This document shows, piece by piece, positions 26,183 to 32,087 of a stretch of DNA of 37,729 nt. Position 1 is the stretch's first letter. Each line of letters begins with the position of its first letter. Origin of the DNA: Planctomycetes bacterium GWF2_42_9 (GTDB lineage Bacteria; Planctomycetota; Phycisphaerae; Sedimentisphaerales; UBA12454); the NCBI GenBank assembly GCA_001825675.1, contig MHYA01000146.1, positions 1-37,729 of the forward strand, written 5' to 3'. The position numbers were made by a program, and so were the translations under genes. The notes beneath the pieces were generated by a model that saw only the letters and a program-made list of their open reading frames with translations, was not told the DNA's origin and searched no databases.

Positions 26183-27031
26183 TTGCCCGTCATTACTATT
26201 ATACGATCCATCCCAATTGTTGAGCTTTGGCTGCATGGGCGCAGCGTACACACGCAAAAGGCATATAGGAAAGATATTCGCAACTTCCGCTTACAAGTAT
26301 CCAAGCCATTTGCCACTGTCACTCTTGGCGATCTGCAATCGTATGCTGATCAGCTTGCAAGCAATGAACTCAAAGCGATATCGTGCCATAGAATATTATC
26401 GTCAATTAAGAGCCTTTTTACTTTTGCCCATAAACTTGGTTATTTGAGATTCGATGTGGGAAGACCGTTAAAGTTACCCAAATACAAGGATGAACTGGCA
26501 ACACGTATTTTGACTGAGGAAGAAGTTCGTAAAATCATAGAAATGGAGCGCCAGCCCAGAAATCATTTAATGCTTAGAATGCTATATCTTGAAGCTTTAA
26601 GAGTTAGCGAACTTTGCAGGCTTAAATGGGGCGATTTACAGGAGCGTGAAAATAACTCTGGCCAACTCACTGTACTCTGCAAGGGATCAAAGACAAATAC
26701 GATTATTATCCCGCAATCATTGTGGACTGATCTTGTTACATTTAGAAATACGGCTGTTGATATTGCGCCAGTATTTCGCAGTCGCAAAGGCGGGCATCTT
26801 TCGCCTGTGCAAGTTTGGAACATTGTAAGAAAAGCAGCAAAAAGAGCAGGCATAAACAAACCTGTTAGCCCACATTTTTTTCGCCACGCAAATTGCTCAC
26901 ATTCGATTTCGAGGGGTTGCAACCTTGCGGTCGTATCAAAAACTCTTAATCATGCATCGTTAATTACTACACAAAAATATATTCATATTAAACCCAACGA
27001 ATCAAGTTCGCTTTATCTCGAAGATGTTTGA
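26183..27031 (+). CDS. Tyrosine recombinase (phage integrase / Xer-like)
   Basis: A 282-aa protein with a SAM-like N-terminal core-binding domain (about 10-95) and a full catalytic domain: R140 (ALRVSEL), K167 or K170 (CKGSKTN), H231-x-x-R234 (HFFRH), H257 (LNHASL) and Y266 (TTQKYIHI). All catalytic residues are present, so it is probably active. It cuts and rejoins DNA at att or dif-type sites through a 3'-phosphotyrosine. It starts at TTG with only a weak SD; no upstream ATG fits. It is collinear with, and 122 nt upstream of, the lexA-like cassette, so it may mobilise that cassette. XerC/D-type chromosome resolution is less likely given the accessory setting. Confidence 0.88.
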   Translation: MPVITIIRSIPIVELWLHGRSVHTQKAYRKDIRNFRLQVSKPFATVTLGDLQSYADQLASNELKAISCHRILSSIKSLFTFAHKLGYLRFDVGRPLKLPKYKDELATRILTEEEVRKIIEMERQPRNHLMLRMLYLEALRVSELCRLKWGDLQERENNSGQLTVLCKGSKTNTIIIPQSLWTDLVTFRNTAVDIAPVFRSRKGGHLSPVQVWNIVRKAAKRAGINKPVSPHFFRHANCSHSISRGCNLAVVSKTLNHASLITTQKYIHIKPNESSSLYLEDV

Positions 27032-27116
27032 CTGCGCCATGAGCTTTGCTTTGATTCACTCAAATTCACAAGCAAATCAATAAGCAGCATCTAGAAACAT
27101 CTCCCAAATTTTGTAT

Positions 27117-27146
27117 TTGACATCTATGGTTAGATAACCATATACT
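27117..27146 (+). promoter_or_regulatory. lexA promoter with palindromic LexA operator
   Basis: TTGACA at 27117-27122 and TATACT at 27141-27146 are 18 nt apart, a near-consensus sigma-70-type promoter. The spacer and start of the -10 hold a perfect 18-bp palindrome, TATGGTTAGATAACCATA (27125-27142). Its position predicts that LexA blocks polymerase and represses its own cassette. The box differs from the E. coli and B. subtilis SOS boxes. Confidence 0.75.
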
Positions 27147-27152
27147 CAAAAC

Positions 27153-27764
27153 ATTGAAACTTTAACCGCAAAACAGCAGACAATACTTGATTTTATTGAG
27201 CGAAAACTTGCCAATAACGTCTTTCCAAGTCAAAAAGAGATTGCCGAACATTTTGGTCTTGCTCAGAATGCAATATATCAGATTATAACGTATCTTAAAA
27301 AAAAAGGTTATCTTGAAGACAACAGCGTCCATAGAGGCTTAAGACTATCAGAAGAATATATCGCTTCTAAACAGCAGCCCAAGGGATTTCCAGTTGTTGG
27401 TCGAGTTGCAGCTGGAGAGCCTATTCTTGCCGATCAGAACATCACTGATTATATGGATATTAACAGCATCATAAAAAAACAAAGCAAAGATGCTTTTCTG
27501 CTGCAAGTTGTTGGCGACAGTATGGTAGATGCTGGCATAATGAATAACGATTATGTCATCGTAAAACCTCAGAGCACTATCGAAAGCGGCCAGATCGGCG
27601 TAGCTCTTCTTGACGATGAGGCGACAGTAAAACGGATATTCATCAAAGCCGACCAACTGGTACTCAAGCCTGCCAACCCCAAATACAAGCCCAAGACCTT
27701 CAAGAGAGGCGATAAGGCTGTGCGTATCATCGGAAAAGTAATAGGCTGCTTCAGGAATATTTGA
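27153..27764 (+). CDS. lexA: LexA repressor with no standard start codon
   Basis: An open frame of 203 codons, the length of E. coli LexA (202). Residues 4-65 form the winged helix (LTAKQQTILDFIERKLA; QKEIAEHFGLAQNAIYQII). The autocleavage site is A87-G88 in GRVAAGEP. The serine is S123 in VVGDSMVDAG and the lysine K160 in EATVKRIF, with the same 37-residue spacing as E. coli S119/K156. The frame has no ATG, GTG or TTG before M101; a stop lies at 27135. The best start by homology is ATT at 27153, near the expected transcription start, so it would be leaderless or nearly so. It could also be a lost start or sequencing error. The DUF72 gene follows 2 nt after its stop. Confidence 0.82.
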   Translation: METLTAKQQTILDFIERKLANNVFPSQKEIAEHFGLAQNAIYQIITYLKKKGYLEDNSVHRGLRLSEEYIASKQQPKGFPVVGRVAAGEPILADQNITDYMDINSIIKKQSKDAFLLQVVGDSMVDAGIMNNDYVIVKPQSTIESGQIGVALLDDEATVKRIFIKADQLVLKPANPKYKPKTFKRGDKAVRIIGKVIGCFRNI

Positions 27765-27766
27765 CT

Positions 27767-28630
27767 ATGACTTGTCCCATTTACATAGGTATTGCTGGTT
27801 GGTCATATCCTGACTGGAAAGGGATCGTCTATACTAAAAGCGGAATTGATCAGCTTGAGTATGTTGCTCGATTTGTCGATTGTATTGAAATCAATAATAC
27901 TTTTTATCATCCGCCTGAACCAAAAAACTGTAAATCATGGTTATCAAGAGTTGCGGGATTACCTGATTTCTTTTTTACCGCTAAACTGCACAAGGATTTT
28001 ACTCATGAGGGCAGGATCGACCCTGTAATGGTAAAACAATTCCACGAAGGTTTTGAGCTTATACTTGAGGCTGGCAAGCTCAGAGAACTACTGATACAAT
28101 TTAAATTCGATTTTGAGGATACAACGTTTAACAGAACATATCTTCAACAACTTATCAAACATTTCAGCAAGGCATTCAATATTGCTTTGGAGGTACGGCA
28201 TAAAAGCTGGCAAAAGGATGATGCACTGAATTTCCTTACCGATTTGGGAGTATCGGTCTGCAATCTCGATTATCCTCATTCATCGACTTCTTTTGATATG
28301 CCGCTGTGCACAGTTGGCAAGCACGGCTATCTCAGGCTTCATGGCAGAAATGCTGCCAAATGGTTTGCCAAAGATGCAGGAAGTGATGAGGTCTATAATT
28401 ACTTTTATTCCCAGCAGGAATTAACCGAGATAAAGAAGCGAATTGAACAGCTTGCAGATGCTTTTCAAAGTCTTACCGTTATTGCAAATAATCATTTTAA
28501 AGGACAGGAACTGGCCAACTCACTTGAACTCAAATCAATGATCACTGGCTTGCCTCAGTCTGTCCCTGAAGGTCTCTTAAAGGAATACCCACAACTGGCA
28601 CGGATTGCCCGAAAAACTAACCTGTTTTAG
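27767..28630 (+). CDS. DUF72 (YecE-family) TIM-barrel protein
   Basis: A protein of 287 aa from ATG 27767 (AGGAA about 10 nt upstream). A TTG at 27761 would add two residues. It has DUF72 marks: IGIAGWSYPDWKGIVY at the N-terminus, EINNTFYHPP, FFFTAKLHKDFTH, IALEVRHKSW, GYLRLHGRN, and VIANNHFKGQELANS near the end. The fold is a TIM barrel with conserved polar residues, but no activity is established for the family. Its place between lexA and the DnaE2-like gene, with almost no gap to lexA, puts it under LexA control and suggests a DNA-damage link. Confidence 0.88.
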   Translation: MTCPIYIGIAGWSYPDWKGIVYTKSGIDQLEYVARFVDCIEINNTFYHPPEPKNCKSWLSRVAGLPDFFFTAKLHKDFTHEGRIDPVMVKQFHEGFELILEAGKLRELLIQFKFDFEDTTFNRTYLQQLIKHFSKAFNIALEVRHKSWQKDDALNFLTDLGVSVCNLDYPHSSTSFDMPLCTVGKHGYLRLHGRNAAKWFAKDAGSDEVYNYFYSQQELTEIKKRIEQLADAFQSLTVIANNHFKGQELANSLELKSMITGLPQSVPEGLLKEYPQLARIARKTNLF

Positions 28631-28651
28631 AAGTATGACAATAGGTGAATT

Positions 28652-31534
28652 ATGAGGGCTGCTGCACTTTCATGCAGAAGTTATTTTAGTTTATTGAGGG
28701 GAGCAGTATCTCCTGAGCGATTGGCACAGGCGGCGTTAGAGCTTGGTTATGGAGCGATTGCTCTGGCGGACACCAATTCTCTTTACGGAATCGTTGAATT
28801 CTATAAAGCTACCAAGCAGACAGGCATAAAGCCAATCATCGGGGCCGAGATACTCACCGACTCTCAAAGAGCTATACTGCTCATAGAGAATGAACAAGGT
28901 TATAGTAATTTATGCAGAATCATATCGGCCCGTAATCTTGACCAGCAGTTCTGTTTGATAAAAGAACTTGCTCAAGGTAGCAATGGTCTTATTTGTATCT
29001 GCTCTTTGCCGCAACTGGCTCTCCAACTAAAAAGCATACTCGCCAAATCCAATGTGTTCTTTGGCTGTAAAGATATCGAAGATGCCAAAGCAGCAAGACA
29101 ATACAAAATAGAGCCTGTTGCCAACGACATTTATAATGTCCTTGATAAAGATGACACTATTCGAGCAAATATCCTGAATCGCATACGTCACATGAGCGTT
29201 GGGGGGGCAGGTTGTGAGGACAACTGTGGGCTTAATTCACTTGTGCCCGAGACACAGGTTAGGGCATTATTTTCAGATTATCCCAAAGCTGTTTTCAACT
29301 CAGAGCAGATTGCCATGCGTTGTGAATTTGAACTATTTACAGGCAAATATTATCTACCGAAAGTTGAACTTGGCATTGAGAAGAACTCTGATACAAGACT
29401 GGCCAAGCTCTGCCACAGACTTCTTGCTTCAAAATATACTCCTGTCAGTCATCAAATAATAAAAAGGCTTGAGAATGAGCTTGTAGTTATAAAGGGCAAT
29501 AAATTCAGTGATTACTTTCTGGTCGTAAATGAGATTGTTTCTTTTGCGAAAAGTAGGAATATCCCTGTTGAAATAAGAGGTTCTGCCGCTGGCTCGCTTG
29601 TTGCCCATGTACTTGGCTTTACTCGTGTTTGTCCTGTTGCAAATGATTTATACTTTGAGAGATTTATGAATCCTGGCAGAAAAGACTGCCCTGATATTGA
29701 TATAGGCCTTTGCTGGCGTGGAAGAGATGATGTAATCAAATTCTGTTATGATCACTGGGGATATGATCATGTTGCTATGATTTCAACGATGAATACTTAT
29801 CGCTATAAAGGGGCAATCAGAGATGTCGGTCGGTATTTATCATTACAGCCAAATCAGATTGATGAATTTGTTGAGAGCAGACGGACAAGAAATGATTCCG
29901 CAGTATATGAACTCGCCAAAAAGATAACAGGAGTTCCACGGCATGTTGGTATCCATTGCGGAGGTATTGTAATTACACCACGACCTGTCAGCGAACTTGC
30001 TCCGCTGCAATACACAAATAAAGGCATAATAGTCACGCAATATGAAAAGGATGCTGCTGAGGCACTTGGTCTGATTAAAATTGATCTCTTGGGCAATAGA
30101 GCATTATCGACAGTAAATGAAGCGGTGATTCTCGTAAATACACGGCAGTCTCTTGATATCGATGCAATCAGTCATACCGACAAGAAGACAGGCAAACTGC
30201 TCACCGATGGGAGAACCATGGGTGTATTCCAATGCGAGTCACCTGGCATGAGTCAACTATGCAGAGGGCTTAAGGTCAAAAGCCAAAAGGATATCATGAT
30301 TGCTCTTTCACTGATTAGACCTGGACCCGCTTCAGGTGGTATGAAGAAAGAATTTATAGAACGTCATGTAAATGGCAAACCATTCAAATACCTCCATCCT
30401 AAACTTGAGAAGATGCTCAAAGATACTTACGGATTATTATTATACCAAGAAGACGTAATGAAGATTGCCGTTGAGGTCGCTGGCTATACTTTAGCAGAAG
30501 CAAATCAGTTCAGAACGGATGTATCCAAGAAAGTATCTTCTGTCAGAGTTCAGAAGCAATATAATGATTTTGTTTATCACAAAGCAAATGAGGCTGGTAT
30601 CGACCGTGATACCGCCCAAACCATTTGGGAACAGGTTTTAAAATTTGCAGCCTACTCATATTGCAAGGCTCACGCCACTGTTTATGCAAATATAGCCTGG
30701 CAGACAGCATATTTGAAAGCTCATTATCCACAGGAGTTTTATACCTCTCTCTTTAACAATCATCACGGTATGTATCCGTTAAGAATATATGTTTGGGATG
30801 CGATACGCTCAGGAGTAAAAGTATTGCCGCCTCATGTAAATTATAGTCACATCGAATGGACAAAGGAAGGCAAGGCAATCAGGGCAGGACTTGGCATTGT
30901 GAGGGAACTGAGCATCAAAACCATCAATAGCATTATTGAGCAGCGAAACAAAAAGTCCTTTGCTGATATTGACGATTTACGGTCAAGGGTAAAATTCACC
31001 AAACCTGAATTGCAGAACTTAATTCATCTCGGCTCTTGTGATGGAATTGGCTTGAGTCGTCCGATGATGCTTTTAAAACTCAATACTGCTCCTGCGAATG
31101 CTGGGCAGTTACTGCTTTTTGATCTTTATAGACAGCCTAAAGAGAAACTCTTGGATTACGACAGGATTGCGAAACTGAAAGCTGAGGTGGATATGACTGG
31201 CATACCGTTCAGCGTCCATCCAGCCGTTTATCTCGATACTGAGCATGTTCTTGCCACTGAACTGTATAAGCATGTTGAGCGAGAAGTGACTGTCGCTGGT
31301 TTTATTGCAACTGCTAGGACTGCTCGAACTGAGGATGGAAGGACTATGGCGTTTGCGACTATAGAGGATGCATCGGGACTGGCGGAGGTCAGTTTCTTTC
31401 CTGATAGAATAGATGACTATTATCAAATCTGTTCTGCATCAGGTGCGGTCTGGGCAAGAGGAATAGTGAATGATCATCTGTCTTCAATTACCATTGATTG
31501 TCGGAATTGCGGTAAGATAAAAATACCAGCTTGA
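28652..31534 (+). CDS. DnaE2/ImuC-like C-family DNA polymerase alpha subunit
   Basis: A protein of 960 aa, shorter than DnaE (about 1160) and DnaE2 (about 1050). The PHP domain (1-270) is degenerate: LSCRSYFSLLRGA replaces the H.HS.YS metal motif. The palm has GSAAGSLVAHVLG (310-322), then PDIDIG at 347-352. The usual motif is PDxDxD, so the third Asp is Gly (G352, codon GGC at 29705). The other catalytic Asp, D478 in LIKIDLLG, is present. Fingers, HhH and an OB-fold (about 880-935) follow. QLLLF (819-823) resembles a beta-clamp motif. SD AGGTGA. Third gene of the lexA cassette; probably translesion or mutagenic, if active. Confidence 0.87.
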   Translation: MRAAALSCRSYFSLLRGAVSPERLAQAALELGYGAIALADTNSLYGIVEFYKATKQTGIKPIIGAEILTDSQRAILLIENEQGYSNLCRIISARNLDQQFCLIKELAQGSNGLICICSLPQLALQLKSILAKSNVFFGCKDIEDAKAARQYKIEPVANDIYNVLDKDDTIRANILNRIRHMSVGGAGCEDNCGLNSLVPETQVRALFSDYPKAVFNSEQIAMRCEFELFTGKYYLPKVELGIEKNSDTRLAKLCHRLLASKYTPVSHQIIKRLENELVVIKGNKFSDYFLVVNEIVSFAKSRNIPVEIRGSAAGSLVAHVLGFTRVCPVANDLYFERFMNPGRKDCPDIDIGLCWRGRDDVIKFCYDHWGYDHVAMISTMNTYRYKGAIRDVGRYLSLQPNQIDEFVESRRTRNDSAVYELAKKITGVPRHVGIHCGGIVITPRPVSELAPLQYTNKGIIVTQYEKDAAEALGLIKIDLLGNRALSTVNEAVILVNTRQSLDIDAISHTDKKTGKLLTDGRTMGVFQCESPGMSQLCRGLKVKSQKDIMIALSLIRPGPASGGMKKEFIERHVNGKPFKYLHPKLEKMLKDTYGLLLYQEDVMKIAVEVAGYTLAEANQFRTDVSKKVSSVRVQKQYNDFVYHKANEAGIDRDTAQTIWEQVLKFAAYSYCKAHATVYANIAWQTAYLKAHYPQEFYTSLFNNHHGMYPLRIYVWDAIRSGVKVLPPHVNYSHIEWTKEGKAIRAGLGIVRELSIKTINSIIEQRNKKSFADIDDLRSRVKFTKPELQNLIHLGSCDGIGLSRPMMLLKLNTAPANAGQLLLFDLYRQPKEKLLDYDRIAKLKAEVDMTGIPFSVHPAVYLDTEHVLATELYKHVEREVTVAGFIATARTARTEDGRTMAFATIEDASGLAEVSFFPDRIDDYYQICSASGAVWARGIVNDHLSSITIDCRNCGKIKIPA

Positions 31535-31574: not shown

Positions 31575-32087
31575 TTAATGTTGCAACTCCAACTGATTCG
31601 CTCGGATAAACCGCAAAGCTTCTTTTACATGCTTTTCAGTAATCATCTCTTCAGATTCAGCACGACTTATGCGGTAAGCCAATTCAACAGTTTTTAAGGC
31701 CAGGGATATGTCATTGAGTTTTGCGAGCATCGCAATTATGTTTTCATCCATATTCCAGTTGACGAGTTTCATACGCTGCTTCAATATAGCAAATATCTGC
31801 TCTGGTGAGTATGGTTTACATTTTATTATGATTGAGAATGAATCAACTACATGTGACAATAGGCGTTGAGGTTCGTCCACGGATACAACAAGCATATTTT
31901 GAAATGGATAGACCACGTCAGCACCCTTGCCAATTTCATGTATGGAAAGTTCCCTTGCCGTTGTGATTCTATAAACGATATCCTCTAAGTGAAGAGCTAA
32001 TCCATCGGCACACCTGATATGGATAACTGTGGATGGGGCTAAGGAGAATATCACAGCCTTGAAAAAACTGTTATTTGACCAGCCCAA
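31575..32087 (-). pseudogene. AAA+ ATPase C-terminal fragment (RuvB-like)
   Basis: The frame spans 170 codons but only the part from about residue 40 looks real. It contains MLVVSVDEPQRLLSHVVDSF, like sensor 1 and the arginine-finger region, then IIIKCKPYSPEQIFAILKQR and ITEKHVKEALRFI, the AAA+ lid seen in RuvB and relatives. Walker A and B are absent. The first residues run across an integrase tail read on the other strand, so the gene was cut by a rearrangement near 32000. It is convergent with the DnaE-like gene. Probably not functional. Confidence 0.5.

Follow-up and report, generated by a model that had tools for sequence, protein, structure and literature searches.

A lexA-DUF72-polymerase operon of Planctomycetota as a candidate SOS translesion unit with an exchangeable polymerase

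We analyzed 37,729 nucleotides of DNA (the window), which make up the opening 37.7 kb of contig C146 (MHYA01000146.1; 83 kb) in the 4.86-Mb metagenome-assembled genome (MAG; 92% complete, 7% contamination) of Planctomycetes bacterium GWF2_42_9, focusing on three adjacent genes that encode LexA, a DUF72 protein and a DnaE2-type polymerase. Comparison with related loci suggests, at a probability of roughly 60%, that this lexA-DUF72-polymerase cassette is an autonomous SOS translesion operon in which the polymerase is exchangeable and DUF72 handles damaged DNA.

The initial annotation of this region listed four consecutive plus-strand genes (tyrosine recombinase, LexA, DUF72 and C-family polymerase), and Pfam and NCBIfam profile matches confirm all four. 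LexA (27153-27764, plus strand, 203 residues) scores 177 bits against TIGR00498 (cut-off 110.95) and contains both the helix-turn-helix and the S24 domain. In an alignment of eight cassette-type LexA proteins its autocleavage residues are intact, as had been claimed: the Ala87-Gly88 site, Ser123 and Lys160, which we take to have these roles in self-cleavage. The window lexA has no ATG, GTG or TTG at the conserved N-terminus, and homology places its start at an ATT (27153) that aligns with Met in all seven other LexA rows; ATG is present in all remaining cassette lexA upstream rows. The DUF72 gene (27767-28630, plus strand, 287 residues; PF01904, 5.3e-46) combines the family profile match with the family TIM-barrel fold. 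The reported spacings are right: the LexA stop ends at 27764 and the DUF72 ATG lies at 27767 (2 nt), while the DUF72 stop ends at 28630 and the polymerase ATG lies at 28652 (21 nt).

Correct as it was in genes and gaps, that account overlooked a promoter and predicted operator in front of lexA. Direct reading of the letters gives a plus-strand promoter at 27117-27146 (TTGACA at 27117-27122, an 18-nt spacer, TATACT at 27141-27146), and comparison of palindromes across cassette lexA upstream regions identifies a LexA-type operator, TATGGTTAGATAACCATA (27125-27142, plus strand), which occupies the promoter spacer. Similar palindromes (TATGGTYNNNNRACCATA and variants) are common before cassette lexA genes, and TTGA or TTGC often lies directly upstream of them; a promoter layout like that of the window is found before many of these genes. 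Of the 120-bp regions upstream of 27 cassette lexA genes, 23 contain a palindrome of 18 bp in which 6 or more of the 7 half-site positions pair, where dinucleotide shuffles predict 5.9; in 16 of the 27 the palindrome comes with TTG[AT] no more than 9 nt upstream, against 0.46 expected; these counts take palindromes of any sequence, and the 27 rows (28 listed, minus the duplicates L169 and L170, plus L081 under a looser start rule) are mutually related, so they are not independent trials. Because the operator sits in the promoter and the gene spacing is tight, a single LexA-controlled transcript is likely in the window, which bears out the proposal made in the initial annotation.

The exact operator consensus occurs at four sites in 12 genomes, three of them before a cassette lexA, and the window operator is the sole exact match in its own 4.86-Mb genome. 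Since exact sites are so rare, the cassette LexA may serve mainly its own operon. A wider regulon was considered and rejected: the fourth exact site (G050, contig C401) has no clear gene start alongside, and the excess of one-mismatch sites is small. The pattern, which was built from cassette operators, misses the promoters of G004, G058, G306, G262, G279 and G290 even with one mismatch, and an earlier 16-bp pattern gave 22 matches in the window's own genome compared with 11 for its control. That genome encodes a second, host-type LexA elsewhere (C188), and no TATGGT-type palindrome was found in three host-type lexA upstream regions.

The gene order is not unique to the window. A contig scan with the polymerase, in which the best 80 of 181 relatives were kept, gave 79 loci; 27 of these carry the cassette polymerase type (51-78% identity over the best segment), whereas the remaining loci show 40% identity or less. 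Five of the 27 are cut at the 5' side by contig ends (L078, L090, L098, L103, L116). Among the 22 informative loci, the order lexA-DUF72-dnaE2 is found in 17, all of them Planctomycetota by title; the other five comprise three with lexA-dnaE2 (L086, L091, L097), one with DUF72-dnaE2 (L093) and one with dnaE2 alone (L095). With starts chosen by pattern, lexA and DUF72 overlap or are separated by at most 15 nt in 11 of the 17 loci (57-334 nt in the rest), and the gap between DUF72 and dnaE2 is 29-79 nt in 13 of the 17. No fourth neighbor is common to most cassette loci: one gene cluster recurs at 6 of the 22, at varying distances, a helicase-like cluster is found in three close relatives, and two more clusters occur in three. 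The helicase-like gene, UvrD-like by eye, lies 101-184 bp downstream of dnaE2 in L078, L080 and L082.

A taxonomic class sample of 298 genomes, six of whose loci are shared with the contig scan (L085=G052, L092=G050, L094=G004, L096=G290, L097=G058, L102=G279), gives a similar picture. With thresholds placed at score gaps (at least 284 bits for cassette-type LexA, at least 387 bits for cassette-type DUF72), cassette-type LexA is found in 11 genomes, all within the window's taxonomic order, and cassette-type DUF72 accompanies it in 11 of 11, compared with 7 of 287 other genomes (Fisher p 9e-16). All 12 non-orphan cassette-type lexA loci are followed by a translesion polymerase (dnaE2 in eight, umuDC in four), and in nine of the 12 DUF72 lies between lexA and the polymerase. 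An orphan cassette-type lexA, on contig C2 of the window's genome (L052:632-1243), has neither DUF72 nor a polymerase after it.

Some of these cassettes differ in the polymerase slot. In the sister genomes G252 and G284, lexA-DUF72 is followed by umuD-umuC in place of dnaE2; in G041, an S24-type umuD frame and umuC follow DUF72 and cassette lexA is absent, and in G047 DUF72 is convergent with umuDC. The names UmuD and UmuC come from profile matches, with the four cassette UmuC proteins slightly under the curated 431 bits and the four UmuD proteins above their cut-offs. A tree of DUF72 proteins places three of four umuDC-linked ones among those linked to dnaE2, partly in unresolved branches, and that of G041 outside, a placement that fits polymerase exchange. 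Because many cassettes keep DUF72 while the polymerase differs, DUF72 probably performs a task that serves different polymerases alike. A separate umuD-umuC pair is present in the window's genome (L055:2953-4637), with no lexA or DUF72 adjacent in the 6 kb examined.

The window polymerase (28652-31534, plus strand, 960 residues) shows the PHP-Pol-HhH-OB architecture of DnaE2 by Pfam domains, with an OB match below the curated cut-off, and judging from its length and a missing profile match it appears to lack the C-terminal domain. Its PHP domain has lost the HxH motif, which is kept in none of 24 cassette polymerase rows but in all seven DnaE1 rows. In a quick tree with SH-aLRT (approximate likelihood-ratio) support, 24 cassette polymerases form one clade (support 100) next to polymerases with Y-family partners and away from seven DnaE1 references; three ImuAB-linked DnaE2 references form a clade of their own, outside the cassette polymerases and on the DnaE1 side of the midpoint root. 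By alignment, a putative beta-clamp motif, QLLLF, occupies residues 819-823 (31106-31120, plus strand); the excerpted text of PMC3919608 gives the clamp-motif consensus as QL[S/D]LF and describes typical DnaE2 motifs as having proline at positions 1 and 3. The form QxxLF is present in 22 of 28 cassette rows covering the clamp region (LF alone in five, neither in one) and in all four DUF72-linked rows whose Y-family partner is inactive; it is absent from all eight rows that have an active-looking Y-family protein and from all three with ImuAB, and 6 of 7 DnaE1 proteins have it.

A profile built from three plasmid ImuA proteins and applied to the 79 scanned loci, rather than to whole genomes, gave no match, and no ImuB-type protein was recognized among the Y-family (PF00817) matches of six cassette genomes: these seven matches, in frames of 388-419 residues, are DinB/UmuC-like, and the five that were aligned keep the catalytic acidic residues. 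In 17 further genomes, ten had no PF00817 match, and the other seven had eight matches in frames of 394-541 residues, including the cassette umuC of G252 and G284. Among 19 distinct dnaE2-cassette genomes, ten have no PF00817 match, although completeness figures are lacking for most of these ten, and one measures just 1.5 Mb. The claim that imuA and imuB are missing from the cassette is upheld by these results, and the cassette indeed looks like the SOS mutagenesis variant that had been proposed. Because the polymerase carries its own clamp motif, direct loading onto the clamp without ImuA, ImuB or a Y-family partner is plausible.

Beyond Phycisphaerae, DUF72 recurs beside translesion polymerases. 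In Spirochaetes, DUF72 is followed by a Y-family gene and dnaE2 at three loci (L112, L126 and L138, the last of them frame-broken), and a plasmid of Desulfosarcina ovata, a mobilizable one, carries the related series lexA, DUF72, Y-family gene and dnaE2. The four Y-family proteins of these loci are without the catalytic acidic residues and hence inactive, whereas the Y-family partners at loci lacking DUF72 retain them, one with a Glu-to-Asp change. The Spirochaete and Desulfosarcina DUF72 proteins stand apart on long branches; because the tree is partly unresolved, it proves neither a single nor a multiple origin. In a plasmid survey, 40 records besides that of D. ovata match DUF72 (Staphylococcus, Enterococcus, Legionella, Burkholderia multivorans and Agrobacterium rows were left out), and 16 regions, hand-picked among the matches listed, were examined: in three (Burkholderiaceae) DUF72 comes after imuA, a Y-family gene and dnaE2, imuA lies 4-6 kb from DUF72 in two, and Ku or LigD lies within about 5 kb in two (L180 and L188, Paraburkholderia). 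A 2025 paper also reports, in its excerpted text, that DUF72 is somewhat enriched beside polB2 (PMC11791011); it was the only source in the open-access literature searched that joined DUF72 with translesion synthesis, and those searches returned no paper on a lexA-DUF72 operon and no tested DUF72 function. This repeated linkage to translesion polymerases lends support to the proposed role of DUF72 in the damage response. Within the protein, Glu41, Lys73, Glu142, Asp168, Arg190, His192 and Asn242 are invariant in 22 of 22 aligned rows and sit at or beside strand ends of the TIM barrel.

These features suggest how the operon might work. LexA bound to the operator within the promoter would repress the operon, as operator position and gene spacing imply. 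LexA cleaves itself when RecA filaments form on damaged DNA; with the cleavage residues intact, damage would release repression, and DUF72 and the polymerase would be made together. The DnaE2 protein, lacking the PHP proofreading residues and carrying its own clamp motif, could then be loaded directly, with no ImuA, ImuB or Y-family partner, and the most likely task of DUF72 would be to recognize or trim lesion-bearing DNA before or after bypass.

Several observations weigh against this reading. The DUF72-polymerase gap is 139-428 nt in 4 of the 17 loci, making co-transcription less sure there. DUF72 is missing from the three lexA-dnaE2 loci among the 22 informative ones, and in G306 and G262 it lies on another contig, away from lexA-umuD-umuC; because some cassettes lack it, DUF72 is not strictly needed in the operon. 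Conversely, cassette-type DUF72 occurs without cassette LexA in seven class genomes. When one mismatch is allowed, the operator pattern has 34 forward matches in the 12 genomes versus 22 for a control pattern, so it is the exact matches that carry the idea of a LexA dedicated to a single operon. The contrast in clamp motifs runs parallel to phylogeny. With regard to DUF72 itself, neither a repair polymerase nor imuA, Ku or LigD was seen in 9 of the 16 plasmid regions (for three unannotated ones among these nine, our own profiles were the only check), other DUF72 genes stand in unrelated settings, for example after Suf genes, and the fold-match score of UV-damage endonuclease is no better than that of sugar epimerases. 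Finally, the window polymerase alone has Gly at position 352 (codon 29705-29707, plus strand, by alignment), where the remaining 87 of the 88 aligned polymerases that cover the site have Asp. This residue and the ATT start of lexA mean that the window copy may be poorly functional or contain an assembly error.

The points on DUF72 bear on the possibility that this TIM-barrel protein has a metabolic or housekeeping role and is no more than a passenger of the operon. As fold matches, sugar epimerases and methanobactin proteins do at least as well as UV-damage endonuclease, and other DUF72 genes have Suf genes and further unrelated genes as neighbors. Against this stand the linkage to translesion polymerases in several separate contexts that involve dissimilar DUF72 subfamilies, the presence of Ku or LigD near DUF72 on two plasmids, and some enrichment beside polB2 (in the excerpted text of PMC11791011), and we regard this explanation as rather improbable.

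The points on the window copy raise the question of whether it is a decaying duplicate, the working cassette of the genome being the second one, which the same MAG holds on contig C41. The ATT start, Gly352, the orphan lexA on C2 and scattered 3'-end fragments of dnaE2 would all fit such a history. Gly352, however, aligns with E. coli D405 (numbering counted by hand), and the equivalents of D401 and D403 are kept; since we take the E. coli catalytic set to be D401, D403 and D555, the case for catalytic death by Gly352 is weakened. All three genes are open, the operator fully matches the consensus, and dN (nonsynonymous divergence) between the window and C41 copies is 0.16-0.20, with dS (synonymous divergence) not estimable and taken as saturated. 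In a comparison made without the dnaE2 row of G004 (out of frame, 35 stops), the window polymerase has six singleton departures at otherwise invariant columns, within a range of 0 to 9 in the 21 rows compared. Protein change in the window cassette looks restrained, and neither dN nor the singleton counts support general decay. Because the genome is a MAG with 7% contamination, the C41 copy may belong to another strain. Overall, a decaying duplicate is unlikely.

The region had been described as recombinase-linked and perhaps mobile. The first part of that description is not supported. The XerC/D-like recombinase (26183-27031, plus strand; Phage_integrase, 3.7e-26; best NCBIfam matches XerA, XerD and XerC, all below cut-offs; catalytic residues identified only by eye) stops roughly 120 nt short of lexA, whose promoter lies in between. 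A profile built from this one sequence, which may miss distant recombinases, gave no match at any of the 79 other loci in flanks of up to 8 kb (0.7 to 7.9 kb upstream at the informative loci), and the recombinase was rejected as a cassette member; it is an incidental neighbor outside the cassette. A weaker form of mobility stands, in the phage-type neighbors of the G004 and C41 copies and in the plasmid cassette. Upstream of the G004 cassette is a run of divergent genes (L034:159-4368), with a similar run in C41 (L039:1-2276); the G004 run includes a phage-type annealing gene, named Sak4-like from its profile match (5.6e-42), and a weak excisionase-like helix-turn-helix match (0.0045), and C41 shares part of it. 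Contig C41 ends at the dnaE2 stop. In G000, dnaE2 fragments comprising the last 30-60 codons lie at C108:24721-24811, C108:31057-31213 and C127:2447-2623; each reaches the 3' end of the gene or a contig end, their 5' cut points differ, and no common flanks were found among them. The 3' end of dnaE2 is possibly an integration site.

One might conclude from these neighbors, and from the related cassette on the mobilizable plasmid, that an integrative element or phage carries the cassette as cargo for its own benefit, with LexA as an immunity-type repressor. No non-cassette neighbor is common to most loci, however, several copies lie on chromosome records, and no relative of the window DUF72 was found in viral contigs, where 81 pattern matches yielded none that could be confirmed; we consider element cargo quite improbable. 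The DUF72 proteins of 17 phage records are 26.8-28.4% identical, and a phage origin of the polymerase was likewise rejected: 1,323 phage records match it, all under 60% identity.

Least probable, with only a slim chance of being right, is the original proposal that DUF72 replaces ImuA and ImuB as polymerase accessory in a recombinase-borne mobile cassette: the missing imuA and imuB, the six genomes with no ImuB-type match and the middle position of DUF72 speak for it, but it is already weakened because DUF72 coexists with ImuA (three plasmids carry it together with imuA, a Y-family gene and dnaE2), and DUF72 also stands beside umuDC and beside an inactive Y-family gene with dnaE2, the polymerase has a clamp motif of its own, and the recombinase is absent from the 79 other loci.

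Compared with known systems, the proposed translesion operon shares parts with several. Like the ImuA-ImuB-DnaE2 mutasome (DnaE2A), it is LexA-linked and encodes a proofreading-poor DnaE2; it differs in having DUF72 and no ImuA or ImuB, in a polymerase that lies outside the ImuAB clade (three references), and in a QxxLF clamp motif where the mutasome has a PLPLF-like one. The excerpted text on DnaE2B and DnaE2X (Timinskas 2026, PMC12926913) describes DnaE2 in genomes without imuA or imuB, with Y-family proteins, RecA and ImuB-C as partners and a few DnaE2B for which no partner was found; the cassette polymerase instead has DUF72 as its neighbor, in 10 of 19 genomes without a Y-family match, and DUF72 occurs nowhere in the main text of that paper. 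The Geobacter lexA-imuB-C-polY operon, as described in excerpts of PMC6511836, is likewise a damage-induced translesion operon headed by lexA and without imuA, but it has an active Y-family polymerase and ImuB-C where the cassette has DUF72 and DnaE2. The PolB2 operons show some degree of DUF72 enrichment beside a damage-inducible polB2, yet they are a B-family system, and the excerpted text of PMC11791011 describes no operon like the cassette. For Tm1631 (1VPQ), the excerpted text of PMC3828134 gives no polymerase context, unlike the cassette.

Elsewhere in the window, a minus-strand frame of 170 residues follows the polymerase (31575-32087), with weak Orc1/Cdc6 and RuvB similarity below cut-offs and no Pfam match, and an IS110-type transposase gene lies close to the contig start (278-1315).

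DUF72 proteins are widespread, with members in 9 of 14 control genomes. The occurrence of the same lexA-DUF72 pair with different polymerases amounts to a natural experiment that separates DUF72 from any single polymerase and makes its role directly testable. The cassette DnaE2, for its part, may be able to act with neither ImuA, ImuB nor a Y-family partner, whereas DnaE2 is usually regarded as one component of a larger mutasome. A broader reading, which we put forward tentatively and judge somewhat less probable than not, is that DUF72 is a general translesion partner, recruited repeatedly to DnaE2, UmuDC, ImuA-ImuB-DnaE2 and PolB2 for one lesion-processing activity, and that the Phycisphaerae cassette is a plug-in SOS unit that retains its own LexA and DUF72 as the polymerase is swapped. 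If true, this would give a function to a widespread uncharacterized family.

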